From: Ursus arctos
Lineage: Eukaryota > Chordata > Mammalia > Carnivora > Ursidae
NCBI RefSeq assembly: GCF_023065955.2
Contig: NW_026622985.1
Location: 580,001 to 644,000 of the forward strand
Length of the DNA: 64,000 nt
Reading direction: 5' to 3'
A program made the position numbers and the translations under genes. Under the pieces are notes generated by a model, which searched no databases, was not told where the DNA came from, and saw only the letters and a list, made by a program, of their open reading frames with translations. This document shows positions 6,704 through 64,000 of the stretch, one piece after another; the first letter of the stretch is position 1; every line of letters begins with the position of its first letter.

Positions 6704-6716
6704 AAATCTTTGTGGA

Positions 6717-8896: not shown

Positions 8897-11800
8897 GACA
8901 TTTGAAGGCCCCCTGTGCCCCAACACTGGGGGCCACGCTCCCCCTCCCCCACGTACTCACTTCAGCCCGCCGCTCTGCTCCCCGCACAGCCGGCGGATCG
9001 GGCCTGTCAGGCTCCTGGGGCCTAACCCTAACCCTAGGTCAGTCGACTAGGGGTCCCTCCCCAGGGGCTTGGAGCCACAGCCCCAGGGATAGGGGACCTC
9101 TGACCCCAGCGCTGGACTCAGCCTGCCCACCTGCAGCCAACCGGTCCCTTCGGGGCGCCGCTGAGCATGCAAGACTCAGCCTTCAGACGAACATTCAGGA
9201 GAACCGGCAGGGCCCCCGAGCCCCCAGCGACTTCGACGGCCCCCAGCGTCACAACACTTGGGACCACGCTACCACTACCCCGCGTCATAACCTCCGCCCA
9301 CTGCTCCAATCGCCGCACGGCCAGCGGATCAGGCCTGCCGGGCTCCTGGGGCCTAACCCTAACCCTAGATTGGCCGCCAAGGGATTGGGGACCCCTGAGC
9401 CCAAGCGCTGGACTCAGCCTGCCACTGTGCAGCCCCCCTGGGGCCCTCGGAGTGCTGCCCAGCATTCAGGGCGGGAGAATGGGCAGGTACCCCCCGAGCC
9501 CCCGGCAAAATTCGATGGCCCCCCCGTGCCACAACGCTTGGGCCCACGCTCCCCCTCCCTGACACCTTCACCTTGGCAAGCTGCCTTGCTCACCACCCAG
9601 GTGGAAGATCGGGCTTGTTGCGATCCTGGGGCCTAACCCTAAACTTCGGTCGGGGGCTGAGGGGCCCTTTACTAGGGGCCTGGTGCAGCACTGCATAGGA
9701 CTGGGGAACCCCGAGCCCCAGCAGCACTCAGCCTACTACCAGAAGGCCACCCGAATCCCTAGAGGCGACACCAAGCATTCAGGGCGGGAGAACCGGCAGA
9801 GGTCCCGAGACCACTGCCACCCTCGACGGCCCCCTAGGCCACTACGCTTGGGCCCACGCTCCCCCTGCCCCATGCCCTCACCTTGGCCCACGACCCCGCT
9901 CGGCCGTCAGCTGGCATATCGGACCTGCCGGCCTTCTGGGGGCTAACCCTAACCCTAGGTCAGCTGCCAAGGGGCCCACTCCCAAGGGGCCTTAGCGCCA
10001 CAGAGCCTAGGATTGGGGACCACCGAGCCCCAGCACCTGACTCAGGCTGCCTCCACGACGCAACCTGGGCTCCTCTGGGCGCTGTAGAGCATTCAGGGAA
10101 GGAGAAGATGAAGGCCCCACTGAGCCCACAGCGACCTTCGAAGGCCCCCCCGGGCCACAACACTTGGGCCCACAATCCCCCTACCCCACGCACTCACCTC
10201 GGCCCCCTACACTGCTTACCTCACAGCCAGCGAATGGGGCCTGCCTGCCTCCTGGGGGCTAACAATAACCCTAGGTCGGCCCAAGAGGGGCCCCTCCCAA
10301 AGGGCCTGGCGCCACAACGTCCGGGATTGGAGACCCCCCCAGCCCAAGCACGGAACTCAACCTGCCGCCCCACTGCCAAACCGGCCGCTAGGGGCACCGC
10401 TGGTCATTCAGGGCTGGAGAATGGTCAGGGCCCTCCGAACCACAGCGACCTTCCAAGGCCCCCTGGGCCAAAATGCTGGGCCCCACGTTCCCGCTCGCCA
10501 GCGCCCTCACCTCGGCCCGCCTCACCGCTTGCCACACACCCAGTGGACAGGGCCTGCCAGCATACTGGGGGCTAACCCTAAATCTAGGTCTGCCCCGAGG
10601 GGCCCCTCCCAAGGGGCCTGGCGCCTCAACGCTGGGGATTAGGGACCCCGAGCCCCAGCGCCGGTCTCACCCTGCCGCACCTTTGACATCCGGGCCGCTA
10701 GGGGCGCCGCCGGTCATTCAGGGCGGGAGAACGGTCAGGGCCCTCGGAACCCCCGGTGACCTTCAAAGGAACCCGCGCCAAAACACTGGGGCCCACACTC
10801 CCGCTCGCCAGCACCCTCACCTCTGCCCGCCCCTCCGCTCGCCACACAGACTGCGCATTGGGCCTACCGGCCTCCTGGGAGCTAACCTTAACCCTACGTC
10901 GGCCCCCGTGAGGCCCCTTCGAAGGGGCCTGGCGCCGCAATGCCAGGGATTGGGGACCCCCGAGCCCCAGCACCGGACTCACCCTGCCGCACCGCCGGCA
11001 CCCGGGCCGCTAGGGGCGCCGCCGGTCATTCAGGGTGGGAGAATGGGCAGGTGCCTACGAGCCCCCGGAGACCTTCGAAGGCCCCCCGCGCCAAAATGCT
11101 GGGTCCCACGCTTCCGCTCGCCAGCGCCCTAACCTCGGACCGCGACTCTGCTTGCCACACAGCCGGCGGGTCGTGCCTGATGGCCTCCTAGGGGCTAAGC
11201 CTAATACCAGGTCGGCCCCTGAGGGGCGCCTCCCAAGGGACCTAACGCTGCAACGCCAGTAATTGGGGACCCTGAGCCTCAGCGCCGGACTAACGCTGCC
11301 ACTCCGCTGCCTCCCGGGCCGCTGGGGCGCCTCCGGTCATTCAGGGCGGGAGAACAGGCAGGGCCCTCGAGACCCCGGCGATCTTTGAAGGCCCCCCGCT
11401 CCAAAACGCTGGGGCCCATGTTCCCAATCGCCAGTGCCCTCACCTCGGACCGCCCCTCCGCTCGCTGCACAGATGGCGGATCGGGCCTGCCAGCCTCCTG
11501 GGGGCTATCCCTAACCGTAGGTCGGTCCCCGAGGGGCCCCTCCCAAAGGGCCTGGCGCTGAAACACCTGAAATTGGGGACCCCCGAGACTCAGCACCAGA
11601 CTCAACCTGCCGCCATGATCTACCTGGGCCTCTATGGGCGCCGCCGTCATTCAGGGCGGGAGAATGCGCAGGGCCCTCTGAGCCCTCCATGACCTTCAAA
11701 GGCCCCCCGCGCCAAAACCCTGGAGCCCACGCTCCCTCTCGCCAGCGCCCTCACCTCGGCCCGCCCCTCTACTCGCCCCACAGCCAGCGGATCGGGCCTG

Positions 11801-12123
11801 CTGGCCTCCTGGGTACTAACCCCAGCCCTAGCTAGGCCCCGATGGGTCCCTCCCAAGGGGCCTGGCGCCGCCAAGCCGGGGATTGGGGACCACCGAGCCC
11901 CAACGCCATACTCACCCTGCCGCCCCACCACCCGGGCCGCTAGGTGCCCCGCCGCTCATTCAGGGCAGGAGAATGGGCAAGGCCCTCCGAGTCCCCAGCG
12001 ACATTGGAAGGCACCCCGCGTCAAAATGCTTGAGCCCACACTCCCGCTCATCAGCGCCCTCACCTCGGCCCGCCCCTCCTCTCGCAGCACAGCTGGCAGA
12101 TTGGGCCTGCCGGCCTCCTGGGG

Positions 12124-12146
12124 GCTAACCCTAACCCTAACCCTAT
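12124..12146 (+). repeat. Longest telomeric hexamer run seen (three copies)
   Basis: Three consecutive CCCTAA-type hexamers end in CCCTATG instead of the usual CCCTAGG. Nearly all other monomers have two or fewer. The following monomer spacing is about 6 bp longer, as expected from one extra hexamer. Confidence 0.9.
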
Positions 12147-13683
12147 GTCATCCCCAAGGGGCCCCTCCCAAGGGTCCTGACGCCGCAACGCCGGGGATTG
12201 GGGACCCCCGAGCCCCAGCGCCGGACTCACCCTGCTGCCCCACTGCCAACCAGGCTGCGAAGGGCACTGCTGGTCATTCAGGGCGGGAGAACGGGCAGGG
12301 CCCTCCGAGCCCCCTGCAGCCTTCAGAGGCCCCCCGCACTGAAATGCATGGGTCCACGCTCCCGCTCGACAGCGCGCTCACTTCAGGCCGCCCCTCCGCT
12401 CACCGCACATCCAGCAGATCGGGCCTACTGGCCTCCTGGGGGCTAACCCTAACCCTAGGTCGGCCCGCAAGGGGCCCCTCCCAAGGGGCCTGGCGCCGCA
12501 ACCCTGGGGATTGAGGACCTCTGAGCCCCAGCGCCAGACTCAAACTGCCGCCCCGCCACCACCCGGTCTGCTTGGGGCGCCCCTGGTCATTCAGGGCAGG
12601 AGAACGGACAGGGCCCTCCAAGCCCATGGTGACCTTCGAAGGCCCCCCACGTCAAAATGCTTGGGTCCACGCTCCCGCACGCCACCGCCCTCACCTCGGT
12701 CCACCCGTCTGCTCTCTGCACAGCCTGTGGATTGGGCCTGCCGACCTGCTGGGGGCTAACCCTAACCCTAGGTCGGCCCGGAGGGGCCCCTCCTAGGGGC
12801 CTGGTGCTGCAACGTGGGGGTTTGGGGATCCTCTAGCCCCAGTGCCGGACTCACCCTGCCGCACCGTCAACACACGGGCCGCTAGGGGCGCCGCTGGTCA
12901 TTCAGGGAGGGAGAACGGTCAGGGCCCTCTGAGCCACAGCGACCTTCCAGGGTCCCCCGCGCCAAAAAGCTGGGACCCTAGTTCCCACTCGCCAGCGCCC
13001 TCACCTCGGCCCACCTCTTTGGTCGCCACACAGCCAGCAGATCAGGCCTGCCGGCATCCTGGGGCTAACCCTAACCCTAGGTTGGCTCCGAGGGGCCCCT
13101 CCCAAGGGGCCTGACACCGCAACGCTGGGGAATGGAGATCCTGGAGCTGAAGCATCGGACTCACCCTGCCACCCCATCGCCATCCCGGCCGCTAGGGGGC
13201 CACCGGATATTCAGGCGGGAGAACAGCAAGGCCATCTTACTTCCCGGTGACCTTCGAAGGCCCCCCATGCCAAATGCTTGCTCCCACGCTCCCGCTCCCC
13301 AGCGCCCTCACCTAGGCCCGCCCCTCCACTCGCCGCACAGCTGTCAGATTGGTCCTGCCAGCCTTCTGGGGCTTAACCCTAACCCTAGGTCTGCCCCCGA
13401 GGGGCCACTCCCAAGGGGCCTGGCTTCGAACACCGGGGATTGGAGACCCCCGTGCCCCAGAGCCAGACTCACCCTGCCGTCCCACCACCACCTGGGCTGA
13501 CACGGGCGCATCTGGTCATTCAGGGTGGGAGAACGGGCAGGGCCCACCGAGCCCCTGGCAAACTTCGAAGGCCCCAGTCCCAAAATGCTTGGGCCCATGC
13601 TCCCACTTGCCAGCGCCCTCACCTCGGCCCGCCCCTCCGTTCGCCGCACAGACGGCGTACCGTTCCTGCCGGCCTCCTGGGGG

Positions 13684-13996
13684 CTAACCCTAACCCTAGG
13701 TCGGCCCCCGAGGGGCCCTACCCAAGGGGCCTGGCAGCGCAACGCCGGGGATTGGGGACACCCAAGCCCCAGTGCCAGACTCAAACTGCCGCCCCGCTGC
13801 CACCCGGTCCGCTAGGGGCGCCGCCGGTCATTCAGGGCGGGAGAACGGGCAGGGCCCTCCAAGCCCACGGCGTCCTTCGAAGGCCCCCCACGTCAAAACG
13901 CTTGGGTCCACGCTCCCGCACACCACCGCTCTCACCTCGGTCCGCCCGTCTGCTTGCTGCACAGATGGCGTATCGTTCCTGCCGGCCTCCTGGGGG
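13684..13996 (+). repeat. Reference monomer, CCCTAA orientation (313 bp)
   Basis: This is a well-preserved monomer for use as a guide. Landmarks in order are the telomeric block CTAACCCTAACCCTAGG (13684-13700), a GAGGGGCCC segment, CCGCTAGGGGCGCC (13809-13822), TCATTCAGGGCGGGAG (about 13828-13843), CCTTCGAAGG (13874-13883), a CAAAACGCTTGGG segment (about 13892-13904) and a CCGCCC-type GC box near the end. The next monomer begins at 13997. Confidence 0.9.
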
Positions 13997-16900
13997 CTAA
14001 CCCTAACCCCAGGTCGGCCCACGAGGGGCGCCTCCCAAAGGGCCTGGTGCCACAAGGTCGGGGATCAGAGACCACCCAGCCCAAGCGCCCAACGCACCCT
14101 GCCACCCCGCCGCCAACCGGACCGCTAGGGGCGCTGCCGGTCATTCAGGGCAGGAGAACGGGCAGGGCCCTCCGAGCCCCCGGAGACCTTAGAGGCCCCC
14201 GCACCAAAACGCTTGGGTCCATGCTCCCGCTCAACAGCGCCCTCACCTTGGCCCGCCCCTCCGCTCGCCACATAGCCAGCGGATCGGGCCTGCTGACCTC
14301 CTGGGGGCTAATCCTAACCCCAGGTCGGCCCCCGAGGGACCCCCTCCCAAGAGGCTTGGCACCGCAAAGCCGGGGATTAGGGACCCCGAGCCCCAGCGCC
14401 GGATTCACCCTGCCGCACCGTCGACACCCGGGCCGCTAAGGGCACTGCTGGTAATTCAGGGCGGGAGAATGATCAGGGCCCTCTGAGCCACAGCAACCTT
14501 CCAAGGGCCCCCGCGCCAAAAAGCTGGGGCCCACGTTCCCTCTCGCCAGCGCACTCACTTCGGCCCGCCTCTCCACTCGCCGTACACCCAGCGGATCGGG
14601 CCTGCCAGCATCCTGGGGGCCAACCCTAACCCTAGGTTGGCCCCAAGCGGCCCCTCCCAAGGGGCCTGGCGCAGCAGTGCCAGGGATTGGGACCCCGAGC
14701 CCCAGCGCCGGACTCACCCTGCCACACCGTTGACACCCGGGCCCCTAGGGCCCCCGGTCACTCAGGGCGGGAGAACGGACAGGGCCCTCCGAACCCCCAG
14801 TGAACTTCAAAGGACCCCGCGCCAAAACGCTGGGGCCCACGCTTCTGCTCACCAGCGCCCTCACCTCCGCCCTCCACTCCACTCTCACCACAGCTGCCGG
14901 ATCAGGTTATCGGCCTCCAGGGGGTTACCCTAACCCTAAATCCCCCCCGAATGGCCCCTCCCAAGGGGCCTGGCACCACAACATCAGGGAATGGAGACCT
15001 CTGAGCCGTAGCCCCGGACTCACCCTGGCGCCCAGCTATCACACGGGCTGCTACTGGCGCTGCCGGTAATTCAGGGCGGGAGAACAGGCATTGCCCTCCG
15101 AGACCCCGGCGCCTTCGAAGGCCCCCCGCGCCAAAACGATGGGGCCCACGCTCCCGCTCGACAGCGCCCTCAACTCAGCCCGCCCCTCGACTTGCCACAC
15201 AGCCTGCAGATCGGGCCTGCCGGACTCTTTTGGTTACCCTAACCCTAGATCGGACCCCAAGGGGCCCCTCCCAAGGGGCATGGAGCCGCAATGCCGGTAA
15301 TGGACCTCTGAGCTGCAGCACCAGACTCACCCTGGCGCCCTGCTGCCACCCGGGCTGCTACTGGCGCCACTGGTAATTCAGGGCGGGAGAACGGGCACTG
15401 ACCTCCGAGCCCCCAACGACCTTCGAAGGCCCCCCACGCCAAAATGCTTGGGCCCACGCGCCCGCTCGCCAGCGCCCTCCACTCGGCCTGCCCCTCCGCT
15501 TGCCGCACATCCAGTGGATCGGGACTACTGGCCTCCTGGGGGCTAACCCTAACCCTAGGTTGGCCCCGAGGGCCCCTCACAAGGAGCCTGGGGCCGCAAC
15601 ACCGGAGATTGGGGACCCCTGAGCCCCAGCGCCGGACTCACCCTGCCGCCCCGCTGTCCCCGGGCCACTAGAGGCGCTGCCAGTCATTAAGGGCGGAGAA
15701 GGGGCAGGGTCTTCCGAGCCCCCAGCGACCTTCGAAAGCCCCCCCGCGCCAAAACGCTTGGGCCCTGGCTCCCGCTGCCCAGCACCCTCACCTCGGCCCG
15801 CCCCTCCGCTCGCTGCACAGCCGGCGGATTGGGCCTGCGGGCCTCCTGGGGACTAACCCTAACCATAGGTCAGCCCCCGAGGGGCCCCTCCCAAGGGCCT
15901 GGCGCCGAAACGCCTGAAATTGGGGAGCCCCGAGACTCAGCGCTGGACTCACCCTGCCACCCCTATCTATCTGGGCCTCTATGGGCGCCTCCGTCATTCA
16001 GGGCAGGAGAATGCGCAGGGCCCTCTGAGCCCCCGGTGAACTTTGAAGCCACCTGCGCCAAAACCCTGGGGCCCTCACTACCTCTAGCCAGCGCCCTCAC
16101 CTCGGCCTGCTCGTCCACTCACCCTAGAGCCAGCGGATCAGGCCTGCCTGCCTCCAGGGGGCTAACCCTAACCCTAGGTCGGCGCCCGAGGGGCCCCTCC
16201 CAAGGGGCCTGGCACCGCAATGCCGGGGATTGGGGACCCCCGAGCCCCAGCGCTGGACTCACCCTGCAGCTCCGACGCCCCCCGGGCCACTAGGGGCACC
16301 GCCGGTCACTCAGGGCCGGAGAACGGGGTGGGCCCTCTGAGCCTCCAGCGTCATTCGAAGGCCCCCCGAGCCAAAACGCTTGGGCCCACGTTCCCACTCA
16401 CCAGTGCCTCACCGTGACCCACTCCTCCGCTTGCCGCACAGCTGGCGGATCGGGCCTGCTGGAATCCTGGGGGCTAACGCTTACCCTAGGTCGGCCCCCG
16501 AGAGGCCCCTCCCAAGGGGCCTGGCGCCACAACGCTGGGGATTGGGGACCCCCGAGCCCCAGCGCCGGACTCACCCTGCCTCCCCGCCATCACCCAGGCC
16601 ACTAGGGGCGCCACGGGTCATTCAGGGAGGGAGAACGGGCAGGGCCCTATGAGCCCCCAGTGACTTTCGAAGGCCCCCTGCTCCAAAACGCTTGGACCTA
16701 TGCTCCCGCTTGCCAGCGCCCTCACTTCGGCCCGCACCTACGGTCGCCGCAGAACTGGCGAATCGGGTGGGTCTGCCTCCTTGGGGCTAACTCTAACCCT
16801 AGGTCGGCCCCGAAATGCGCCTCCGAAGGGGCCTGGCATTGCAACACCGCACATAGGGGACCCTGAGCCCAACCACAGGACTCACCCTGCCATCCTGCTA

Positions 16901-17557
16901 CCACCCGGGCCGCTAGGGGCGCCGCCGTTCATTCAGGGAGGAGGAACGGTCAGGGCCCTCCAAACCCCAGCGACCTTCGAAAGCCCCCTGCGCCAAAACA
17001 CTTGGGCCCTGGCTTCCGCAGGCCAGCACCCTCACCTCGGTCCTCCCCCCCCGCTCGCTGCACAGCCCGCGGATCGGGCCTGCGGGCCTCCTGGGGACTA
17101 ACCCTAACCATAGGTTAGCCCCCGAGGGGCCCCTCCCAAAGGGTCTGGTGCCGAAACGCCTGAAATTGGGGACCCCCGAGACTCAGCGCCGGACTCACCC
17201 TGCCACCCCGATCTATCTGGGCCTCTATGGGCGCCGCCATCATTCAGGGCGGGAGAATGCGCAGGGCCCTCTGAGCCCCTGGTGACCTTCGAAGGCCCCC
17301 CGCGCCAAAACGCTTGGAGCCACGCTCCCGCTCGCCAGCGCCCTCACCTCGGCCCCCGCCTCCTCTCGCTGCACACCTGGAGGATCGGTCATGCCGGCCT
17401 CCTGGGGCTAACCCTAACCCTAGGTCAGCCCCCGAGGGGCCCCTTCCAAGGTGCCTGGCGCTGCAACACCGGTGATTGGGGACTCCCGAGCCCCAGCGCC
17501 TGACTCACCTGCTGCACGGTCACCTTTCGGGCCTCTAGGTGCGCCGCCGGTCATTCA

Positions 17558-17561
17558 GGGC
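17558..17561. other. Orientation switch 1 (CCCTAA to TTAGGG)
   Basis: The forward monomer reads normally up to TCATTCAGGG and then continues as 'ctgaggtgagggtgctggcg', a part of the reverse-oriented monomer. GGGC at 17558-17561 fits both sides, so the join has about 4 bp of microhomology. Everything right of it reads TTAGGG until the next switch. Confidence 0.93.
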
Positions 17562-19661
17562 TGAGGTGAGGGTGCTGGCGAGTGGGAGCGTGGGCCCAAG
17601 CGTTTTGGCGCCGGGGGCTTTTGAAGGTCACCAGGGCCTTGGAGGGCCCTGCCCATTCTCCCAACCTGAATGACCGGCAGCAATCCTAGCGGCCTGGGTG
17701 GGGGTGGGGCGGCAGGGTGAGTCCAGCGCTGGGGCTCAGGGGTCCCCAAACCCCGTCGTTGCTGCACCAGGCCCCTTGGGAGCGTCCCTTCTAGGGCTGA
17801 CCTAGGGTTATCACCAAGGTGGCCGGCAGGTCCGATTCGCCAGCTGTGCCGCGAGCGGAGAGGGCTAGGATGAGGGCGCTGGCGAGCGGGAGCATGGGCC
17901 CAAGTGTTTTGGTGGGGGGGCCATCAAATATCGCCAGGGGCTCGGAGGGCCCTGCCCGTTCTCCCCAGATGAATGACTTGAGGTGCCCATAGCAGCCCCA
18001 GTGGTGGCCAGGTGGCAGGCTGAGTCTGGCACTGCGGCTTGGGGCTCCCAAACCCCGGTGTTGCGGTGCCAGGACCCTTGGGAGGGGGCCCTCGTGGGCC
18101 GACCTAGGGTTAGGGTTAGCCCCCAGGAGGCCGGGAGGCCTGATCCGCCGGCTGTGCAGTGAGAGGAGGGGCGGGCCGAGGCGAGGGCGCTGGAGAGCTG
18201 GAGCATTGGGCCAAGCGTTTTTATGGGGGCGTTCGAAATTCGCCGGGGGCTCGTAGGGCCCTGCCCGTTCTCCTGCCCTGAATGACTGGCGGCGCCCCTA
18301 GCATCATGGGTGGTGGCGGGTCGGCAGGGTGAGACCGGCCTTGGGGCTGGGGGGTCACAATCCCTGGGGTTGCTGTGCCAGGCCCCTTGGGAGGGGCCCC
18401 TTTGTGTCCGACCTATTGTTAGGGTTAACCCCAGGACGCAGGCAGGCCCTATCTGCTGGCTGTGGGGGTGAGCAGAGTGGTGGACCAAGGTGAGGGTGCT
18501 GGCGAGCGGGAGCGTGGGCCCAAGCGTTTTGGCGCAGGGGGCCTTCAAAGGTCGCCGGGTGCTCGGAGGGCCCTGCCCATTCTCCCGACCTGAATGACTG
18601 GCGGTGCCCGCAACGGCCCGGGTGACGGCGGGGCAGCAGGTTGAGTCCAGCGCTGGGGTTCGGAGTTTCCCAATCCCTGGTGTTGTGGTGCCAGGCCCCT
18701 TGGGAGGGGCCCCTCGGGGGGCCGACCTAGGGTTAGGGTTAGCCCCCAGGAGGCTGGCAGGCCTGATCCGCTGGCTGTGTGGTGAGCGGAGGGGCGGGCT
18801 GAGGTGAGAGCGCTGGCGAGCGGGAGTGTGTGCCCCAGCGCTTTGGCGCAAGGGGGCTTCGAATGTCGCTGGGGGCTCAGAAGGCCCTGCCCGTTCTCCT
18901 GCCATGAATGACCGGCGGCGCCCCTAGCAGCCTGGGTGGCAGCGGGGCGGCAGCATGAGTTCAGCACTGGTATTCGGGGGTCCCCAATCCCAGCATTGTG
19001 GCGATAGTCCCCCTGAGATGGGCCCCTCGGGGGTCGACCTTGGATTAGGGTGAGCCCCCAGGAGGCCGGCAGGCCTGATCCGCTGGCTGTGTGGTGAGTG
19101 GAGGGGCAGGCCGAGGTGAGGGCACTGGTGAGTCGGAGCGTGGGCCCAAGCGTTTTGGTGAGGGGGGCCTTCAAAGGTTGTTGGGGGCTCGGAGGTCCCT
19201 TCCCGTTCTCCCACCCTGGATGACCGGCGGCGCCCCTACGGGCCCGGGTGGCGGCGGGGCGCCAGGGTGAGTCCGGCGCTGGGGCTCTGGTGTCCCGAAT
19301 CCCTGGCGTTGCGGTGCCAGGCCTCTTGGGAGGTGCCCTGCAGGGGCCAACCCAGGTTTAGGGTTAGCCCCCAGGAGACCGGCAGGCATGATCCGCCAGC
19401 TGTGCGGTGAGTGGAGGGTCAGACCGGGGTGAGGGCGCTGGAGAGCGGGAGCGTGGGCCCAAGCGTTTTGGCGCGGGGGGCCTACGAATGTCGCAGGGGC
19501 CTAGGAGGACCTTGCCCGTTCTCCCACCCTGAATGACCTGTGGCATCCCTAGAGGCCCGGGTGGCAGTGGGGTGGCAGGATGAGTCCGGCACTGGGGTAC
19601 GGGAGTCCCAAATCCCTGGTATTGCTGCACCAGGCCCCTTGGAAAAGGCCCCTCTGTGCGG

Positions 19662-19974
19662 ACCTAGGGTTAGGGTTAACACCCAGGAGGCCGTCAGGCC
19701 CTTTCCGCCGGCTGTGCGGCAAGTGGAGAAGAGGGCCGAGATGAGGGCGCTGGTGAGCAGGAGCGTGGGCGGAATCGTTTTGGCGCGGGGGGCCTTCGAA
19801 GGTCGCCGGGGGCTTGGAGGGCCATCCCCGTTCTCCTCCCCTGAATGACCGGCGGCGCCCCTACAAGCCCAGGTGGCAGCAGGGCGTCAGGGTGAGTCTG
19901 GCACTGTGGCTCGGGAGTCCCTAATCCCCGGCATTGCGGCGCCAGACCCCTTGGGACTGCCCCTTCGGGGGCCA
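19662..19974 (-). repeat. Reference monomer, TTAGGG orientation (313 bp)
   Basis: Landmarks on the + strand in order are TAGGGTTAGGGTTAAC (19665-19680), an E2F-type TTTTGGCGCG (19778-19787), CCTTCGAAGG (19793-19802), CTGAATGACCGGCGGCGCCC (about 19841-19860) and a splice-donor-like GGTGAGT (19891-19897). The next telomeric block starts at about 19975. Many neighbouring monomers also have a GGGGCGGG GC box about 40-60 bp before the E2F-type site, but this one has GAAGAGGGCC there. Confidence 0.88.
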
Positions 19975-51159: not shown

Positions 51160-52420
51160 GAATTAGGGTTAGCCCCCAGGAGGCCAAAGGCCCAATCCGC
51201 TGGCTGTGCAGCGAGCGGAGGGGCAGGCCGAGGTGAGGGCGCTGGCAAGCATGAACCAGGGCCCCAGCTTTTTGGCATGGGGTGCCTTCGAAGGTCACCA
51301 GGGGCATGGAGGGCCCTGCCTCTTCTCCCGCCCTGAATGACTGGCGGCACCCCTAGCAGCCCAGGTGGCGTACGGGCGGCAGGTTTAGTCCAGCACTGGC
51401 GCTTGGGAGTCCCTAATCCCCGGCTTTGCGGGGCCAGGCCCCTTGGGAGGGTCCCCTCGGGGGCCAAACAGGGTTAGTGTACACTCCCAGGAGGCTGAAG
51501 GCCCAATCTGCCAGCTGTGAGGTGAGCGGTGGGGCGGGCCAAGTTGAGGACACTGGCTAGTGGGAGCCAGGGCCCTCAAATTTTGGCGCGGGGGGCCTTC
51601 AAATGCCACCGGGGGCTCAGAGGGCCCTGGTCGTTCTCCCACCCTGAATGACTGGCGGCGCCCACAGGAGCCCAGGTGACGGCGGGGCGGCAGGGTGAGT
51701 CCGGCGCTTAGGCTCGGGGGTCCCCAATCCCTGGCGTAGCGGTGCCAGGCCCCTTGGGAGGGTCCCCCGGGGGCCGACCTCGTATTAGGGGTATCCCTCA
51801 GGAGACAGGCAAGCCCGATTTCCAGTTGTGCCACGAGCTGAAGGACGGACAGAGGTCAGGGTGTTGGCGAGCAGGAGCGTGGGCCCAAGCATTTAGGCGC
51901 AGGGGGCCTTCAAAGGTTTCCGTGGGTTCAGAAGGCTCTGCCCGTACTCCCGCCCTGAATGTCCAGCAGCGCCATATGCGGCCCGGGTCCTGGTGAGGCG
52001 GCAGGGTGAGTCCGGCATGGAGCCTCGGGGGACCCCAATCCCCGGTGTTGCGGTGCCAGACACCTTGGGAGGGGCCCCTTGGGGACCCACCTAGGATTAG
52101 GGTTAGCCCCCAGGAGGCCAAAGGCCTGATCCACTGGCTGTGCAGCGAGCAGAGGGGTGGGCCGTGGTGAGGATGCTGGCAAGCGGGAACCAGGGCCCCA
52201 GCTTTTTGGCACAGGGGGCCTTCGAAGGTCTCCAGGGCCTCGGAGTGCCCTGCCTGTTCTCCCGCCCTGAATGACTGGCAGCACCCCTATCAGCCCAGAT
52301 GGTGACGGGGTGGCAGGTTTAGTCCAGCACTGGGGCTCGGGGGTCCCTAATCCCTGGCTTTGCAGGGCCAGGCCCCTTGGGATGGTCCCCTCGGGGACCA
52401 ACCAGGGTTAGGGTAAGTTC
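51160..52420 (-). repeat. Three-monomer higher-order repeat D-C-E-D-C
   Basis: Subtype marks run D (51160, 'aggaggccaaaggcccaatc'), C (51471, 'caaacagggttag' and 'aggctgaaggccc'), E (51786, 'ggtatccctcaggagacagg'), D (52092, 'aggccaaaggcctgatcc'), C (52400, 'caaccagggttagggtaag'). D to D is about 930 bp, three monomers. E-D pairs also occur at 46197/46505 and 53955/54263, and an E-C pair at 62033/62327. Confidence 0.72.
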
Positions 52421-55400
52421 CCAAGAGGCCAAAGTCCCGATCCACCAGCTGTGCGGCGAGCGGGGGGGCAGGCGGAGGTGAGGGCACTGGTGACCAGAAG
52501 CGTGGGCCCCAGCGCTTTGGCGCGGGGTGCCCTGGAAAGTCGCTGTGACTCTGAGGGCCTTACCTGTTTTCCGCCTTGAATGACCGGTGGTGCCCCTAGC
52601 GGCCCGGGTGGCAGTGGGGCGGCAGGGTGAGTCCAGTGCTGGGACTCGGAGTTCCCCAATCCCTGGCGTGGAGACGCCAGGCCCCTTGGGAGGGGTACCT
52701 TGAGGGCAGACCTACGGTTAGGGATAGCCCCCAGGAGGCCGGCAGGCCCGATCAACCATCTGCGCTGCGAGTGGAGGGGCGGTCCAAGGTGAGGGCACTG
52801 GCACTGGGGAACGTGGGCCCCAGGGTTTTGGAATGGGGGGGCCTTCGAAGATCGCCGGGGTCTCGAGGGCCCTGCCTGTTCTCCCACCCTGTATGGCCGC
52901 AGTGCCCCTAGCGGCCCAGGAGTCAGTGGGGCAGCAGCGTTAGTCCGGCGCTGAGGCTCAGGCTCCCCAATTACTGGCGTTGTGGCGCTAAGTCCCTTGG
53001 GAGGGGCCCCTCGGGGGCCAACCTAGTATGAGGGTGAGCCCCCAGGAGGCCATCAGGCACGACCCACTGGCTGTGCATGGAGGAAAGTCGCGGTCCGAGG
53101 TAAGGGCGCTGGCGAGCGGGAGCGTGGGCCCAGGCCTTTTGGCATGGGGCGCCTTCGAAAGTTGCTATGGGCTCGGAGGGCCCTGCCCCTTCTCCCGCCC
53201 TGAATGACCAGTGGCGCCCATAGCGGCCCGGGTGGCAGCGGGTCGGCAGGGTGAGTCTAGCGCTGGGGCTCAGGGTCCCCAATCCCCGGTGATGCGGCAC
53301 CAGACCCCTTGGGAGGGGCCCCTCAGGGCTGACCTAGGGATAGGGTTAGCCCCCAGGAGGTCACAGGCCCGATCCGCCAGCTGTGCAGTGAGCAGAGGGG
53401 CCGGCCGAGGTGAGGGCGCTGGAGAGCGGGAGCATGGGCCGAAGCATTTTGGCTCGGGGTGCCTTCAAAGGTTGCTGGGGGCTCGGAGGGCCCTACCCAT
53501 TCTCCCGCCCTGAATGCCCGGTGGCACCCCTAGCGGCCCAGGTGGCGGCGGGGCAGCAGGGTGAGTCCGGCGCTTGGGCTTGGGGTTCCCAAATCCCTGG
53601 CATTGCGGCGCCAGGACTCTTGGGGCTGTCCCTTGTGGGCCAACCTAGTGTTAGGTTTAGCCCCCTGGAGGCCGGCAGGCCCGATCTGCTCGCTGTGTGG
53701 TGAGCAGAGCGGCAGGCCGAGGTGAGGGCGGTGCTCAGTGGGAGCATGGGCCCAAGCGTTTTGGCGCGGGGGGCCTTCAAAGGTCGCCGGGGCTTGGAGG
53801 ACCCTGCCCCTTCTCCCGCCCTGAAAGACATTGGCGCCCCTAGCAGCCCGGGTGGTGGCAGGGCAGAAGGGCGCTTAGGCTCGGGTGTCCCCAATTCCCA
53901 GCATAGCAGTGCCAGGCCTCTTGGGATAGTCCCCCCGGGGGGCCGACCTAGTGTTAGGGATATACCTCAGGAGAAAGGCAGGCTCGATTTCCCATTGTGC
54001 TGTGAGTGGAGGAGCAGACTGAGGTCAGGGTGCTCGCGAGTGGGAGCGTGGGCCCAAGCATTTAGGCGCGGGGAGCCTTCAAAAGTTTCCGGGGATTCGG
54101 AGGGCCCTGCCCGTACTCCCACCCTGAATGACCATCGGCACCGTTCGTGGCCCGGGTCCTGGCGAGGCGGCAGGGTGAGTCCGGCATGGAGCCTCGGGGG
54201 ACCCCAATCCCCAGTGTTGCGGCACCAGGCCCCTTGGGAGGGGCCCCTTGGGGACACACCTAGGATTAAGGTTAGCCCCCAGGAGGCCTAAGGCCCAATC
54301 CGCTGGCTGTGCAGAGAGCGGAGGGGCAGGCTGAGGTGAGGGCGCTGGCAAGCGGGAACCAGGGCCCCAGCTTTTTGGCACAGGGAGCCTTCGAAGGTCG
54401 ACAGGGGCTCAGAGGGCCCTGCCTCTTCTCCCGCCCTGAATGACTGGTGGCCACCCTAGCGCCCCAGGTTTTGGCGGGTCGACAGGGTAGTCCAGCGCTG
54501 GGGCTCGGGCATCCCCAATCCCCGGCGTTGCAGTGCCAGGCCCCTTGGGAGGGCCACTCGGGGGCCGACCTAGGGTTAGGGTTAACCCCCAGGATGCCGG
54601 CAGTCCCGATCCGCCATGCAGCGAGCGGAGTGGCGGGCTGAGGTGAGGCCACTCGTGAGCGGGAGCATGGGCCCAAGTGTTTTGGTGCGGGGGGCTTTTT
54701 TAGTTCGCCGGGGGCTCTGAAGGCCCTGCCCGTTCTCACGCCGTGAATGACCGGCGGCGCCCGTAGCAGCCCGGGTGGTGGCGGGGCAGCCGGGTGAGTC
54801 CGGCGCTGGGGCTCGGGGGTCCCCGATCCCCGGCATTGCGGCACCAGGCCCTTTGGGATGGGCCCCTCAGGGGCCGACCTGGGGTTAGGGTTAGCTGACA
54901 GGAGGCCAGCAGATTCGATCTGCCGGCTGTGCGTCGAGTGGAGGGAGGGGCCGAGGTGAGGGCGCTGGCTAGCGGGAGCGTGGGCCCAAGCATTTTGGCA
55001 CGGATGGGCTTCGAAGATTGCCAGGGGCTCGGAAGGCCCTGCTCGTTCTCCTGCCCTGAATGACCGGCGGCTCCCCTAGCGGCCCGGTTGGCGGCGGGGC
55101 GGCAGGGTGAGTCCGGCGCTGGGGCTCGGGAGTACCCAATCCCCAGCGTTGCGGCCCCGGGCCACTTGGGAGGGGCTCCTTAGGGGTTGACCTAGCGTTA
55201 GATTTAGTCCCAGGAGGCCGGCAGGCCCGTTCTGCCTGCTCTGTGGCGAGAGGAGGGGAGGGCCGAGGTGAGGTCGGTGGAGAGCCAGAGTGAGGGCCAA
55301 AGCATTTTGGTGCGGGGGTCCTTCAAAGGTCGCCGGGGGATCGGAGGTCCCTGCCCGTTCTCCCGCCTTGAATGACCAGCAGCGCCACTAGCAGCCCGGG

Positions 55401-58400
55401 ATGGGGCAGGGCGGGAGGGTGAGTCTGGCGCTGGGGCTCGGTGGTTCCCAATACCCGAGGTGCGGTGCTGGACCGTTGGGGGGGGCCCCTCTGGGGCTGA
55501 TCTAGGCTTACGGTTAGCCCCCAGGAGGCCAGCCGGCCCGATCAGCCTGCTGTGCGGCGAGTGGAGGGGCAGCCCGAGGTGAGGGCGCTGGAGAGCGGGA
55601 GCGAGTGCCCAAGCGTTTTGGCGCGGGGGGCCTTCGAAGATTGCCAGGGATCGGAGGGCCCTGCCTGTTCTCCCGCCCTGAATGACTGGTGGCTGCCGTA
55701 GCAGCCGGAAGGCGACCGAGCAGCAGGGTGAGTCCGGCGCTGGGGCTCTCGGTCCCCAATCCCTGTCATTTTGACACCAGGGCCCTTGGGAGGGGCCCCT
55801 CGGGGGCCAACCTAGGGTTAGGGTTAGCCCCCAGGAAGCCAGTAGGCCCAATCCGCTGGCTGTGAGAGGAGCAGAGGGGCGGGCCGAAGTGAGCGTGCTG
55901 TCGAGCAGGAGCGTGGACCCATGCGTTTTGGTGCAGGGGGCCTTGGAACGCTGCAGGGGCTCGGAGGGCCCTGCCCGTTCTCCCGCCCTGAATGAACAGC
56001 AGCGCCCTTCGCAGCCTGGTTGGCAGCGGGGCGGCGGGGTGAGTCCGGCGCTGGGGCTCATGGGTCCCCAATCCCTGGCGTTGCGGCATCACGGCCCTTG
56101 GGAGGCACCCCTCGGGGAATACATAGGGTTAGGGTTAGCCCCCAGGAGGCCGGCAGGCCCAATCTGCCAGCTGTGCGGTGAGCAGAGGGGCGGGCCTAGG
56201 TGAGGGCGCTGGTGAGCGGGAGCATGGGCCCAAGTGTTTTGGCGTGGGGGGCCTTCGAAGGTAGCTGGGGGCTCGGCGGGCCCTGCCCATTCTCCTGCCC
56301 TGAATGACCGGCGGTGCCCCTAGCATCCCGGGTGGCAGCGGGGTGGCAGGGTGAGTCCAGCGCTGGGGCTCTGCATCCCCAATCCCCGGGGTTTTCACAC
56401 CAGGCCTCTTGGGAGGGGCCCCTCGGGGGCTGACCTAGCATTAGGGTTAGCCCCCAGGAGCCGGTAGGCCTGATCCACCAGCTGTGCGGAGAGCGGAGGG
56501 GCGGGACGAGGTGAGGGCGCTGGCGATCTGGAGTGTGGGCCCAAGCTTTTTGGCATGGGTTGCCTTTGAAAGTCGCAGGGGGCTCGGAGGGCCCTGCCCG
56601 TTTTCGTGCCCTGAATGACCGGTGGCGCCCGTAGTGGCCCGGGATGCAGCGAGGCGGCAGGGTGAGTCTGGCACTGGGGCTCAGGGGTCCCCAATACCCG
56701 AGGTGCGGGGCCTGGCCCCTTGGGAGTGGTCCCTTGGCAGCCGAGTTAAATTTATGGGGAGCCCCAAGGAGGCCTGCAGGGCCGATCCTCCGGCTGTGCG
56801 GAGAGCGGATGGGCGGGCCGAGGTGAGGGCGCTGGTGAGTGCGAGCATGGCCCAAGCATTTTGGCACGGGGTCCTTCGAACGTCAGCGGGGGCTCGGAGG
56901 CCCCTGCCCGTTCTCCCACCCTGAATGAACAAACCGCGGCACCCCTAGCAGCCTGGGTGGCGGCGGGGCGGCAGGGTGAGTCCAGTGCTGGGGCTCGGGG
57001 CCCCCAATTCCCGGCGTTGCGATGCCAGGCCCCTTGGGAGGGGACCCTTGTGGGCCGACATAAGGTGGGTTAGCTCCCAGGAGGCCAGCAGGCCCGATCC
57101 ACCAGCTGTGAGGAGAGCGGAGGGGCGGGACGAGGTGACGGCGCTGGCGATCCGGAGCGTGGGCCCAAGCATTTTGGCACGGGTTGCCTTCGAAAGTCAC
57201 AGGGGGCTCGGAGGGCCCTGCCCGTTTTCGTGCCCTGAATGACTGGCAGTGCCCCTAGCGACCCGGGTGACAGCGGGGCAGCAGGGTGAGTCCAGTGCTG
57301 GGGCTCGGGGACCCCAATCCCCAGCGTGGCAGCACCAGGCCCCTTGGGAAGGGCCCCACGGGGGCCGACCTAGGGTTAGAGTTAGCCCCAAGGAGGCAGA
57401 CCTGCCCGATTCGCCGGCTCTGTGGCGACTGTAGGTGCAGGCCGAAGTGAGGGCGCTGGCGAGTGGGAGCATGGGTCCAAGCGTTTTGGAGTGGGGGGCC
57501 TTCAAAAGTCCCTGGGGCCTCAGAGGGCCCTGCCCGTTCTCCCTCCCTGAATGACCCGTGGCGCCCCTAGCTGCCCAGGTGGCAGCAGGTCGGCAGGGTG
57601 AGTCCAGCGCTGGGGCTCGGGATTCCCCAGTCCCCGGCGTTTCGGTGCCAGGCCCCGTGATGGGCCCCTCGGGAGCCGACCTAGGGTTAGGGTTATCCCC
57701 CAGGAGGCCGGCAGGCCCGATCCGCCAGCTGTGTGGTGAGGGGAGGGGCGGGCTGAGGTGAGGGCACTGGCGAGCGGGAGCGTGGGCCCAGCCGTTTTGG
57801 CGTGGGTTGCCTTCGGAGGTCGCTGGGGGCTCGGAGGGCCCTGCCCGTACTCCCACACAGAATGACCGGCGGCGCCCCTAGAGGCCCGGGTTGCGGCAGG
57901 GCTGCAGTGTGAGTCCGGCGCTGGGGCTCGGGGGTCCCCAATCCCCGGCGTTGCAGCGCCTGACCCCTTGGGAGGAGCCCTCGGGGACGAACCTAGATTT
58001 AGGGTTAGCCCTGAAGAGGGGGGTAGGCCCGATCCGCCAGCTGTGCGGTAAGTGGAGGGGCTGCCCGAGGTGAGGGCACTGGCAAACAGGAGCGTGGGCC
58101 CAAGTGTTTTGGTGCGGGGGGCCTTCGAAAGTCGCCGGGGCACGGAGGGCCCTGCCCGTACTCCCGCACTGAATGCCCGCCGGCGCCCATAGTGGCCCGT
58201 GTGGTGGCAGGGCGGCAGGGAGAGTCCGACGCTGGGGCTTGGGGGTTCCCAATCCCCAGCATTGTGGCTCCAGGCCCCTTGGGAAGGGCCCCCCATGGGC
58301 CACCTAGGGTTAGGTTTAGCCCCCAGGAGGCCAGCGGGCCTGATCCGCTCACTGTGTGGCGAGCGGAGGGGCGGGACGAAGTGAGGGCGCTGGCGAGTGG

Positions 58401-60419
58401 GAGTGTGGGCCCAAGCATTTTGGCGTGGGGGGCCTTCGAACGTCGCCAGGGATTCGGAGGGCCCTGCCCGTTCTCCTACCCTGAATGACCGGCAGCGCCC
58501 CTAGTGTCCCAGGTGGCGGCACGGCAGCAGGTTGAGTCTGGCGCTGGGGCTCAGGGGTCCCCAATCCCTGCCTTTACGGTGCCAGGCCCCTTGGGAAGGG
58601 CCCCTCGGGGGCCCTCCTACAGTTTGGTTTAGGCCCCAGGAGGCCGGCAGGCCAGATCCGCTGGTTGTGCAGCGAGCGGAGCGGCCGGCCAAGGTGAGGG
58701 CACTGGCGAGTGGGAGCGTGGGTCCAAGTGTTTTGGCGCGGTGGCCTTCTAAAGTTGCCGGGGGCTCGGAGGGCCCTGCCCGTTCTCCTGCCCTGAATGA
58801 TCGGCGGCGCCCCTAGCGGGTGTACCTGGGGCAGCAGGGTGAGTCCGGCGCTGGGACTCGGGTCTCCCCAATCCCAGGCGTGGCAGTGCCAGGCCCCTTG
58901 GGAGGGGCCCTCTGGCACTGACCTAGGGTTAGGGTTAGTCCCCAGGAGGCCGGCAGGCCCAATCCGCCAGGTGTGGGGCGAGTGGAGCAGTGGGCTGAGG
59001 TGAGGGCACTGACGAGCGGGAGCGTAGGCCCAAGCATTTTGGCGCGGGGGCCTTCGAAGGTCGCCTGGGGTTTGGAGGGCCCTGCCCATTCTCGCGCCCT
59101 GAATGACCGGCGCACCCCTAGCGGCCCGGGTGGCAGCGGGGCGGCAGATTGAGTCCGGCGCTGTTGCTCGGGGGTCCCATTCCCTGGCGTGGCGACGCCC
59201 GGCCCCTTAGGAGGGGCCCCTCGGGGGCCGACCTAGGGTTAGGGTTAACCCCCAAGAGGCCGGCATGACCGATCAGCGGCTGTGCGGCGAGCGGAGGGGT
59301 GGGCCAAGGTGAGTGCGCTGGCGAGCGGAAGCGTGGGCCCAAGCGTTTTGGCGTGGGAGGCCTTCCAAGGTCACCGATTGCTTGAGAGCCCTGCCCCTTC
59401 TCCTGCACTGAATGACCGGCGGCACCCCAAGCAGCCCGGGTGGAGTTGGGGCAACAGGGTGAGTCCGGCGCTGGGACTCGGGGGTCCCCAATCCACGGCG
59501 TGGCGAAGCAAGGCCTCTTGGGAGGGGCCCTCTTGCGCTGACCTAGGGTTAGGGTTAGTCCCCAGGAGGCCAGCAGGCCCAATCCGCTAGCTGTGGGGCA
59601 AGTGGAAGGGTGAGCCGAGGTGAGGGCTCTGGGGAGAGGGAGAGTGGGCCAAAGCATTTTGGCGTGGGGGTTCTTCGAAGGCGCCGGGGGCTCGGAAGGC
59701 CCTGCCCGTTATCCCGCCCTGAATGACCGGCGGCACCCCTAGTGGACAGGGTGGCGGCGGGGCGGCAGGGTGAGTCCGGTGCTGGGGCTCGGGGATCCCC
59801 AATCCCCGGCGTTGCAGCGCCAGGCACCTTGGAGGGGCTCCTCAGGGGCCGACCTAGGGTTAGGGTTAGCCCCCAGGAGGCCGGCAAGCCTGATCTGCCG
59901 ACTCTTCGGTGAGCGGAGGGGCGGGCCGAGGTGAGGGCGCTGGCCAGTGGGAGCGTTGACCCAAGCGCTTTGGCGCGGGCGGCCTTCGAAGGACACAGGG
60001 GGCTCGGAGGACCCTGCCTGTTCTCCCGCCCTGAATGAACGGCGGAGCCCCTAGCAGCCCGGTTGATGGCAGGTTGGCAGTGGAGTCTGGCGCTGGGCTC
60101 GGGGGTCACCAATCCCCAGCATTGTGGCGCCAGCCCCCTTGGGAGGGGCCCTTCGGGGGCCGACCTAGGGTTAGGTTTAGACCCAGGAGGCCGGCAGGCC
60201 TGATCCCATGGCTGTGCGACGAGTGGAGGGGCCTTCTGAGGTGAGGGTGCTGGTGAGCCAGTGCGTGGGCCCCAGCGTTTTGGCACAGGGTCCCGTGATA
60301 TTTGCCGGGGTATTGAGGGCCCTGCCTGATGTCCCGCCCTTAATGTCTGGAACCCCTAGCGGCCCGGGAGGAAGCAGGGAGGCAGTGTTACTCCGGCACT
60401 GAGGCTTGGGTTCCCCAAT

Positions 60420-61740
60420 TACAGGCGTTGCGGCACCAGGCCCTTTGGGAGAGGCCCCTTGGGGGCCAACGTAGGGTTAGGGTTAGCCCCCACGAAACCG
60501 GCAGGCCCAATCCGCCGGCTGTGTGGCGCGCGGAGGGGTGGGCGGAGGTGTGGGCGCTGGCGAGCGGGAGCGTGGGCCCCAGCGCTTTTGCGCGGGGGGC
60601 CCTGGAAAGTCGCTGTGACTCGGAGGGCCCTACCCGTTCTCCCGCCCTGAATGACTGGCGGCGCCCCTTGCAGCCCGGGTATCGACAGTGCAGCAGGGTG
60701 AGTCTGGCGCTGAGGCTCAGGGTCCCCAATCACCGAGGTTGGCGGCACCAGGCCACTTGGGAGGGGTCCCTCAGGTCTGACCTAGGGTTAGGGTTAGCCC
60801 CCAGGATGCTGGCAGACCCTATCTGCTGGGTGTGCGGCGAGCGGAGAGGCGGGCCAAGCTGAGGGCGCTGGCGAGCGGGAATGTGTGCCCCTGAGTTTTG
60901 GCGCAGAGGTCCTTGGAAGGTCGCTGTGTCTCGGAGGGCCCTGACCATTCTCCCGCCCTGAATGTCCGGCAAGCCTTGCGGCCCGGGAAGCCGTGGGGTG
61001 GCAGCATTACTCCAGTGCTGAGTCTCGGGGTCCCCATTTACAAGCATTGCGGTGCCAGGCCCTTTCAGAGGGGCCCCTCTGTGGCCCACATAGGGTTAGG
61101 GTTAACCCCCAGGAGGCCGGCAGTCCCGATCCCCCGGCTATGCGGTAAGCGGAGGGGCGGGCAGAGGTGAGGGCATTGGCGAGCGGGAGCGTGGGCCCCA
61201 GCGCTTTGTTGTGAGGTCCTTTGAATTCACCAGGGTTCGGAGGGCCCTGCCCATTCTCCCGCCCTGAATGACTGGTGGCACCCCTAGCAGCCCACGTGGC
61301 GGTGGGGTGGCAGGGTTAGTGCGGCACTGAGGCTCGGGGTCCCCAATCCTCAGGGTTGGCGGCGCCAGCCCCCTTGGGAGGGGCCCCTCGGGGGTCGATC
61401 TAGGGTTAGGATTAGCCCCCAGGATGCCAGCAGCCAGATCTGCTGGCTGTGCGGCGAGCAGACAGTTCGCCAAGGTGAGGGCGCTAGCGAGCTGGAGCGT
61501 GGGTCGCAGCGTTTTGGCACGGGGGAACTTCGAAGGTGCCGGGGTCTCGGAGGGCAGTGCATGTACTCCCGTCCTGAATTATCGGCGGTGCCCTAGCACC
61601 CCTTGTGGCAGCGGGACGCCAGGGTGAGTCTGGCGCTGCCGCTCAGGTCTCCTTTCCCCAGTATTGTGGCACCAGGCCCCTTGGGAGGGGCCATTTCCGA
61701 CCCGATCCAAGGTAGGGTAACCCCCAGGAGGCCGGTAGGC
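60420..61740 (-). repeat. Higher-order module Q-M-R-S, copy 2, followed by B
   Basis: Q (about 60471, after 'ccaattacaggcgttgcgg'), M (60781, 'aggatgctggcagaccctat'), R (61087, 'ttaacccccaggaggccggc' with 'agtcccgatccc') and S (61399, 'aggatgccagcagccagatc') repeat the order seen at 23400-24335, about 37 kb away. B (about 61708) follows. Confidence 0.7.
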
Positions 61741-64000
61741 CAGATCTGCCACCTAGGCAGCGAGTGGAGGGGCAGGCCGAGGTGATGTCGCTGGCGAGCT
61801 GGAGCGTGTGCCCGTGTTTTGACGCGGGGGGCTTTTGAAGGTCGCTGGGGGCTCAGAGGGCCCTGCCTGTTCTCCCCCCTGAATGACATCAGCATCCCTA
61901 GCGGTCTGGGTGGTGGCGTGGTGGAAGGGTGAGTCCGGCGCTTAGGCTTGGGGGTCCCCAATCCCCGGCATAGCGGAACCAGGCCCCTTGGGAGGGGCCC
62001 CTCAGGGGCCGACCTAGGGTTCGGGATATCCCTCAGGAGACAGGCAGGCCCGATTTCCTGTTGTGCCAAGAGCGGAGGGGCGGGCCGAGGACAGGGTGCT
62101 GGCGAGTGGGAGCATGGGCCCAAGCATTTAGGCGTGGGGGGCCTTCAAATGTTTACGGGGGTTCGGAGGGCCTTGCCCGAAATCCTGCCCTGAATGATTG
62201 GCGGCACCCCTAGCGGCCCAGGTGGTGGCGGGGTGACAGGGTTAGCCCAGTGCTGGGGCTCGTGGGTCCCTAATCCCTGGCTTTGCGGGACCAGGCCCCT
62301 TGGGAGGGTCCCCTTGGGGGCCGACCAGGGTTAGGGTAAGCTCCCAGGAGGCCGAAGGCCCAATCCGCCAGGTGTGCGGTGAGCGGTGGGGCGGGCCAAG
62401 TTGAGCGCACTGGCCAGCGGGAGCCAGGGCCCCAGCATTTTGGCACGGGGGGCCTCTGAAGGTCACGGGGGGCTCGTAGGGCCCTGGTCTTTCTCCCACC
62501 CTGAATGACGGGCGGCGCCCATAGCAGCCCGGGTGAAGGCGGGGCGCCAGGTGAGTTGGGCGCTGGGGCTAGAGGGTTCCCAAACCCCAGTGTTGCGGGG
62601 CCAGGCCCCTAGGAGGGGTCCCTCGGGGCCGACCTAGGGTTAGGGTTAGCCCCCAGCAGGTCAGCAGGCCTGATCCACCGGCTGTGTGGAGAAAGGACGG
62701 GCAGACCAAGGTGAGAGCGATGGCGAGCGGGAGCATGGACCCCAGCATTTTGGCACGGGGGGCCTTCGAAGGTCGCCAGGGGCTTGGAGGGCCCTGCCTG
62801 TTCCCCCGCCCTGAATGACCGGCGATGCCCCGAGTGGCCCTGGTGGTGGCGGGGCGGCAGGGTTAGTCCAGCGCTGTGGCTCGGGGGTGCCCAAATCCCC
62901 GCTTTGAGGTGCCAGGCCCCTTGGGAGGGTCCCCTCGGGGGCCGACCAGGGTTAGGGTAAGCCCCCAGGAGGTCGAAGACCCGATGCACCAGTTGTGCGT
63001 CAAGCGGAGGGGTGGGCCGAGGTGAGTGCGCTGGGGAGCGGCATTGTGGGCCCAAGCGTTTTCATGCGAGTGGCCTTCGAATGTCACCGCGGGCTCGGAG
63101 GGCCCTGTCCATTCTCCCACCCTGAATGACCAGCGGCGCCATTTGCGGCCCGGTTGGCAGTGGGGAGGCAGTGTGAGTCTGGCACTGGGGCACGGGTGTC
63201 CCCAATCCCCGGCGTTGTGAAGCCAGGCCCCTTCAGAGGAGCCCCTTGGGGGCCAACCTAGTGTGGGGGTTAGCAATTTAGGAAGCCGGCAGACCCAATC
63301 AGCTGGCTGTGCGGCGAGTGGGGGCATGCTGAGGTGAAAGCGCTGGAAAGCAGGATTGTGGGCCCAAGCATTTTGCAGCGGGGGGCCTTCGAATGTAACC
63401 AGGGGCTCGGAGGGCCCTGCCCGTTCTCCTGCCCTGAATGACCAGTGGCGCCCTTAGCGGCCCGGGTGGTGGTGGTGCGGAAGGGTGAGTCAGGTGCTGA
63501 GGCTCAGGGTTCCCCAATCCCTGGCGTTGTGGTGCCAGGCCCTTGGGGTGGGCCTCTCGGGGGCCGAGGTAGGGTTACGGTTAGCTCCCAGGAGGCCGGC
63601 AGGCCCGATCCGCTCTCTGTGTGGAGAGCGAAGGTGCGGGCGGAGGTGAGGGCGCTCTCGAGCGGGAGTGTGGGCACCAGCGTTTTGGCGAGGGGTCCTT
63701 TGAAGGTCACCGGTGGTTCGGAGGGCCCTGCCCATTCTCCAGCTCTGAATGACTGGCAGCGCCCCTAGCGGCCCGGGTGTCGACGGTGGGGCAAGGTGAG
63801 ACTGGTGCTGGGGCTCGGGGTCCCCAATCCCCAGCATTGTGGCACCAGGTTCCTTGGGAGGGGTCCCTCGGGGGCCGACGTAGGGTTAAGGTTAGCCCCA
63901 AGGAGGCCAGTAGGCCTGATCCGCTGCCTAGGCAGCGAGCAGAAGGGAGGGCCAAGGTGAGGGCGCTGGTGAGCGGGAGCGTGGGCCCAGGTGTTTTGGC

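Follow-up and report, generated by a model that had tools for sequence, protein, structure and literature searches.

Satellite DNA that carries telomere-like hexamers has a precedent in FA-SAT of the domestic cat, a GC-rich carnivore satellite with TAACCC hexamers and a CpG island in a unit of about 483 bp. Here we analyzed a satellite array in a 64,000-nucleotide stretch of the Ursus arctos genome, referred to as the window (C225:580001-644000, where C225 is the contig holding it), with all DNA comparisons drawn from one assembly of 2.42 Gb in 362 contigs. The array is built from a 313-bp unit with a short telomeric block. With 78.6% GC and 39 CpG the unit resembles FA-SAT, but it is shorter than the cat unit, the two being compared here by description.

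Three other systems are close enough for comparison. Human alpha satellite likewise combines diverged flanking monomers with higher-order repeats of several diverged monomers at >99% identity. However, its unit is 171 bp, AT-rich and free of a telomeric block, whereas in this genome an unrelated 595-bp repeat lies beside the arrays on 12 of the 20 contigs sampled. The mouse order of telomere, homogeneous putative centromeric (minor) satellite and then a different pericentric (major) satellite is also found here, most clearly on contig C59, but mouse major satellite is AT-rich and well homogenized, and the array in the window is not homogenized. Heterochromatic interstitial telomeric repeats place telomeric hexamers beside putative centromeres, and degenerate TTAGGG/TTCGGG tracts exist in this genome too, but in the present array the hexamers sit within 15 bases that form a constant portion of a longer monomer, rather than in a tract. 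For pinnipeds, a published report describes centromeric heterochromatin as mostly GC-rich, with its precise repeat composition still to be determined (PMC7763226). A 313-bp satellite of such kind was not found named in the literature searched, specialist repeat libraries being outside that scope, and strings of the satellite and of the adjoining short interspersed nuclear elements (SINEs) gave no match in the paper texts searched.

With a probability of about 0.68, the window shows an old, unhomogenized pericentromeric layer of a satellite that forms higher-order repeats, and its telomeric block is a passenger.

Results

A telomeric block at a fixed place of the unit

The array occupies 8892..64000 of the window in mixed strand orientation. 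Tandem Repeats Finder gave periods of 310-312 bp across 9381-64000, and a profile search matched 183 monomers from 8892 to the window end with all gaps between matches at or below 32 bp. The edge-corrected consensus is 313 bp long and contains TAACCC twice. The original prediction, made from the sequence alone, of a GC-rich tandem repeat with a period near 312 bp is thus borne out. Unit ends were trimmed by the profile, leaving 306-310 bp in 124 of the 171 full copies, and monomers were realigned with extended flanks for the conservation figures below. Incidentally, no transposable element insertion is evident in the 55 kb of old array (no gap >32 bp between monomer matches), and Rfam and tRNA searches of the window gave no match.

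The telomeric block CTAACCCTAACCCTA, 15 bases long, sits at one place of the unit (consensus positions 172-186), as exemplified at 9022..9036 on the + strand. CCCTAA/TTAGGG hexamers occur 127 times in the window, about threefold more than the 43.3 ± 7.1 found in 100 shuffles (largest 60). Of the array's 125 hexamers, 110 have the same strand as their monomer and map to unit positions 168-190; another 8 are carried by the opposite strand, and the remaining 7 map elsewhere. As most are confined to one 23-base stretch, the motif has a fixed place and is part of the monomer, not a set of scattered or randomly placed insertions, just as had been proposed. The same proposal held that nearly every monomer has the block, usually with two hexamers; its place is indeed constant, but its frequency was overstated. 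Both hexamers are intact in 49 of the 171 full monomers of the window, at least one in 129 and none in 42. In 58 monomers from six other contigs, both are intact in 20 and at least one in 43.

The block decays like its neighbors

Divergence of the block from the consensus is 0.103 in the 171 monomers, compared with 0.085 (standard deviation 0.015) for random sites outside the block that are matched in base and CpG class, and 0.883 of the random matched sets diverge as little as the block or less. When all 15-base windows of the unit are ranked from most to least conserved, the block comes 303rd of 313. Pooling 229 monomers gives 0.0965 for the block and 0.0867 for matched sites (standard deviation 0.0139). 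No 15-base window in the unit is significantly conserved, the lowest ratio being 0.68 with a permutation p of 0.068. The telomeric block therefore decays at the pace of neighboring sites, with no sign of preservation.

The array as a whole behaves likewise. Mean identity to the consensus is 85.9%, and mean pairwise identity among the 171 monomers is 0.762, against 0.763 expected for independent sites. Identity barely drops with distance, from 0.767 at a lag of one monomer to 0.760 at a lag of 80. The divergence is star-like, without homogenization at the monomer level. Copies in such an array diverged independently from the founder, and the block therefore decays like its neighbors. Self-matches of ≥500 bp at 85% were not found within the window by BLAST, so there is no higher-order repeat there.

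These data do not support the earlier suggestion that persistence of the hexamers reflects selection or frequent homogenization; selection on the hexamers finds no support in the matched-site divergence, and their monomer-level homogenization finds none in the neighbor-independent identity. Selection could still be imagined to keep the block as, for example, a binding site for TRF1/TRF2, since the consensus block contains two overlapping matches to the 9-base site YTAGGGTTR, which we take to be a TRF1/TRF2-type site. At least one match is retained in 110 of the 171 window monomers and 40 of the 58 others, or 150 of 229 pooled (about 65%). But a block that diverges no slower than base-matched sites, with 42 of 171 monomers having no intact hexamer, makes such selection very improbable. 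The block is best read as a passenger, present because the founder unit had it.

As a separate observation, non-CpG C-to-A changes from the consensus amount to 0.044 on the C-rich strand, against 0.029 for the complementary change, in the window array. This excess is equal in + and - monomers.

One founder and later block-wise amplification

The 58 monomers mentioned above came from one slice on each of six contigs (C26, C226, C59, C15, C192 and C170). Their consensus matched that of the window at 313 of 313 positions, and thus all sampled arrays descend from one founder. Monomers of different contigs are 0.760 identical. Six near-identical pairs occur among the 58, so that slightly fewer are independent, as expected from the C26 repeat described below.

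The family size was estimated with the consensus 18-mer TCATTCAGGGCGGGAGAA, which occurs 5,940 times in the 2.42 Gb (3,149 and 2,791 on the two strands) while a backward control occurs 0 times. Because this 18-mer is present in 39 of the 229 monomers, arithmetic gives about 35,000 monomers, or about 11 Mb and 0.45% of the assembly. With one unit in tandem and many copies at many loci, this is a satellite family.

Not all of it has remained without homogenization. At the start of C26, a 3,726-bp block of 12 monomers repeats at 99.9% over 2,274 bp (C26:1-6000), and at the start of C3, a 2,183-bp block of 7 monomers repeats at 99.7% over 2,321 bp (C3:1-4500). These near-identical units of several widely differing monomers are higher-order repeats. 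The one on C26 was found in 1 of 8 array slices tested, five of which were only 2-3 kb and too short for such periods. We had considered that the whole family might be frozen, and rejected this because of the higher-order repeats on C26 and C3. The family is homogenized elsewhere as blocks of several diverged monomers, not monomer by monomer.

Among protein records, 38 entries derived from contigs resemble the translation of a chance reading frame in the array. Four of them each align to a single site in the window at 98.4-99.1% over 247/300, 309/309, 243/243 and 215/215 residues, and the best window matches of the other 34 are at 50-71% over at least 60 residues. It follows from these weaker matches that other arrays, or other species, also carry the family. 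An exact-pattern scan of viral contigs gave 0 matches for two patterns, and genome contigs gave five single 18-mer matches in bacterial records, which were taken as chance.

Where the consensus has A or T, randomly chosen monomers differ from one another at 10.5% of sites, compared with 2.7% at A/T sites of the array flank (described below) between chromosomes. If A/T sites mutate alike in both, the founder burst would have about four times the age of the flank's spread. The mammalian mutation rate is near 2e-9 per year, at which the founder might be tens of millions of years old, a rough guess.

Shared edge and inverted arms

The non-satellite flank (1..8891, + strand) contains SINE-like copies. 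This 8.9-kb flank appears to carry several SINEs, as judged by reading the sequence. We take them to resemble carnivore types, and on this resemblance hangs the word 'carnivore' in the original prediction of a distinct carnivore family; that the family is one of its own in this genome stands.

Copies of the array edge (window 9381-9800) are present at 88-100% in at least 28 places on at least 22 contigs, and the last 691 bp of the flank (8200-8890) recur at 95-100% in at least 33 places on at least 26 contigs, its own place being included in both cases. The same flank piece is found at 88-89% in at least seven further places (40 of 76 candidates were scored). Between chromosomes, flank divergence is 2.3-3.2% overall. 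When C59, C226 and C290 were each compared with the window in 300-bp bins, array divergence per bin rose from 4-7% within the outermost 900 bp to 18-27% once past 1.5 kb. The latter is about the level of unrelated monomers, and therefore positional correspondence is limited to the few outermost monomers. An apparent four- to fivefold faster divergence of the array relative to its flank was rejected because the inner part is not positionally matched.

The array, proposed to be 55 kb from the window portion, extends past the window as far as C225:686,491, making about 97.6 kb in total (C225:588,892-686,491). Its continuation was sampled, C225:644,001-655,000 and 658,001-674,000 being left unread. 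Its right end repeats its left end in inverted orientation, with 99.69% identity over 22,190 aligned bases (39 mismatches and 30 gap bases). The arms lie at C225:575,389-597,561 and 677,824-700,000, and are at least 22 kb long as the outer limit was set by the sequence read. In the window, the left arm is 1..17561 (+), extending leftward to at least C225:575,389, and its array portion is 8892..17557 (+).

Orientation of the array is not uniform but switches at about 17,558, 31,409 and 33,896. The first switch (17558..17561) coincides with the inner end of the inverted repeat at 17,561. The profile search placed a - segment at 17558..31410, a short + segment formed by local inversion at 31408..33895, and the main array body at 33872..64000 (-), which continues beyond the window. 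Locally rearranged monomers with 402-bp and 89-bp duplications were seen at 34505..35310 (-) by both Tandem Repeats Finder and the profile search.

The two arms differ unevenly, at 2 of 13,491 flank bases and 37 of 8,669 array bases. On contig C15 this array edge occurs at 99% in either orientation, the two copies being separated by 99 kb. It is likely that the inverted repeat formed as the right edge was copied onto a broken left end, after which the arms may have undergone conversion. On the other hand, since everything comes from a single assembly and the flank arms differ at just two bases, the inverted arms, or even the divergence of the monomers, might be suspected as assembly artefacts. 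We find this hardly credible: the arms do differ at 37 bases inside the array, C15 has the edge in both orientations, and the four closely matching proteins fit single array places at 98.4-99.1%, so that diverged monomers are real there.

The contrast between flank and array differences of the arms is nearly 30-fold, and the differences are denser toward the inner end. CpG decay alone seems too weak to account for it. Two further duplications were noticed. C225:540,001-541,000 is 1 kb of sequence 99.8% identical to the flank at C225:573,079-574,078, a further local duplication. The 33-kb contig C169 has inverted flank copies about 9.6 kb apart, near-symmetrical about its center, and is either a small palindrome or an assembly fold-back.

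A 595-bp repeat beside the arrays

A second tandem repeat has a 595-bp unit consisting of three subunits of about 198 bp. Its units are on average 97.5% identical to their consensus (range 69.7-99.5; 54 units in 12 C59 slices). C59 has telomeric sequence at both ends and a 313-bp array 1.5 Mb from its right end. Of 20 3-kb slices taken from 63.15 Mb onward to this end, 14 consist of the 595-bp repeat (for example, C59:64,170,001-64,173,000), spread over about 0.9 Mb near the telomere. Sampling the array side of 20 contigs revealed the repeat on 12. On 11 of them it is near the array-side end (C225, C37, C70, C115, C4, C270, C181, C59, C307, C329 and C148). On C290 it is internal at 10.56-10.86 Mb, with a 313-bp array to either side (10.34-10.38 and 11.02-11.05 Mb). 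Eleven ends away from arrays, mostly represented by one 2-kb slice each, lacked it except for 4% of one C307 slice at 79%. Being at one end of many contigs but internal in C290, the repeat is most simply centromeric, and by its position it is probably the present centromeric repeat.

Alternatively, the 313-bp family could be a subtelomeric satellite, as at the main FA-SAT location reported in the cat, with the block reflecting exchange with chromosome ends. Many array edges are indeed 5 kb to 4 Mb from a contig end, and degenerate telomeric tracts exist near arrays (C59:63.32 Mb and C340:0.7 Mb). C181 begins with telomere variants and has an array edge about 25 kb in, and 12 kb from the far telomere of C192 a small stretch of the 313-bp repeat makes up 23% of a 1.5-kb slice in which 816 bases are N. 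But the 313-bp repeat was not seen at 10 of 11 ends sampled away from arrays, and the C290 arrays, at 10.3 and 11.0 Mb of 27.3 Mb, are internal and flank the 595-bp repeat. A subtelomeric satellite is the unlikely reading, with the caveat that the subtelomeric and pericentromeric readings overlap where a centromere abuts a telomere.

Several other repeats were noticed at these places. Degenerate telomeric tracts with many TTCGGG lie near arrays or the 595-bp repeat at C59:63,320,001, C329:85,400,001, and C340:100,001 and 700,001, and TTCGGG variants are also present at contig ends of C115, C307 and C181. In C181:1-2000, which has telomere variants and the 595-bp repeat, a CENP-B box core match lies at position 456. 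C290:1-2000 contains a different GC-rich tandem repeat with a period of 205 bp.

Discussion

We consider the window as an old layer that flanks a centromere probably made of the 595-bp repeat. A founder unit of about 313 bp, by chance containing two and a half telomeric repeats, would have been amplified and spread to many chromosomes. Copies in arrays like that of the window would then have diverged independently, without monomer-by-monomer homogenization, while elsewhere blocks of 7 or 12 already diverged monomers may later have been amplified into higher-order repeats. The array would be kept as heterochromatin beside the probable centromeric 595-bp repeat, and its outer edge and flank may have been copied between chromosomes, here also in inverted orientation.

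Instead, the active centromeric repeat of some chromosomes, at least, may be the 313-bp family, with the window as its divergent margin, as in alpha satellite. Its higher-order repeats (7 monomers on C3 and 12 on C26, 99.7-99.9%) are at the starts of these contigs, where the assembly stops, and seven sampled contig ends are inside the family (C15, C26, C192, C226, C170, C126 and C3). This reading is, however, rather unlikely given that the 595-bp repeat adjoins arrays on 12 contigs and is seen in slices over about 0.9 Mb on C59 up to near the telomere.

Several observations weigh against a pericentromeric layer beside a 595-bp centromere. As contig ends fall inside the family, large homogeneous 313-bp arrays may be missing from the assembly or under-represented in it, and some chromosomes could have the family as their centromeric repeat. 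The 595-bp repeat was not seen on 8 of the 20 array-side contigs. It was absent from the one end slice each of C15, C26, C192, C226, C170 and C126, which end in the 313-bp family, and C3 likewise begins inside the family. It was also absent from five slices of C340 and from eight of C318, two of which are 313-bp array. Opposite ends of C15, C115, C70, C4, C170, C237 and C159 read N and are uninformative, the join of C59 to its left telomere spans gaps, and contig ends are not necessarily chromosome ends. CENP-B box cores are found neither in the window nor in the 595-bp consensus, with one in C181:1-2000. Within the window, independent divergence is not perfect either. The standard deviation of monomer identity is 0.032, above the 0.022 of shuffled monomers, and the closest monomer pair is at 0.917, compared with at most 0.845 in three shuffles. 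A few stretches of four monomers also resemble counterparts 10 or 115 monomers away (up to 0.869 ignoring gaps). Such close pairs and similar runs indicate some later local copying in the window.

With about 35,000 copies and about 65% having an intact TRF-type site, there would be on the order of 20,000 predicted telomere-protein sites. Conceivably, the family is a bear-lineage counterpart of alpha satellite whose founder captured telomeric repeats at its origin and whose pericentromeric sites could draw TRF1/TRF2 without selection. We regard this as a long shot; if true, it would tie centromeres to telomere biology.

Satellite families are commonplace, but the stages that coexist here in one genome are unusually informative: a single assembly offers old diverged arrays, higher-order repeats, edges common to chromosomes and inverted arms. 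If the 595-bp repeat is centromeric, these would amount to a pericentromere map that we did not find described in the literature searched. Descent from a single founder is enough to make a telomeric motif seem preserved at one position of thousands of repeats, and the family is useful material for dating the build-up of pericentromeres outside primates.

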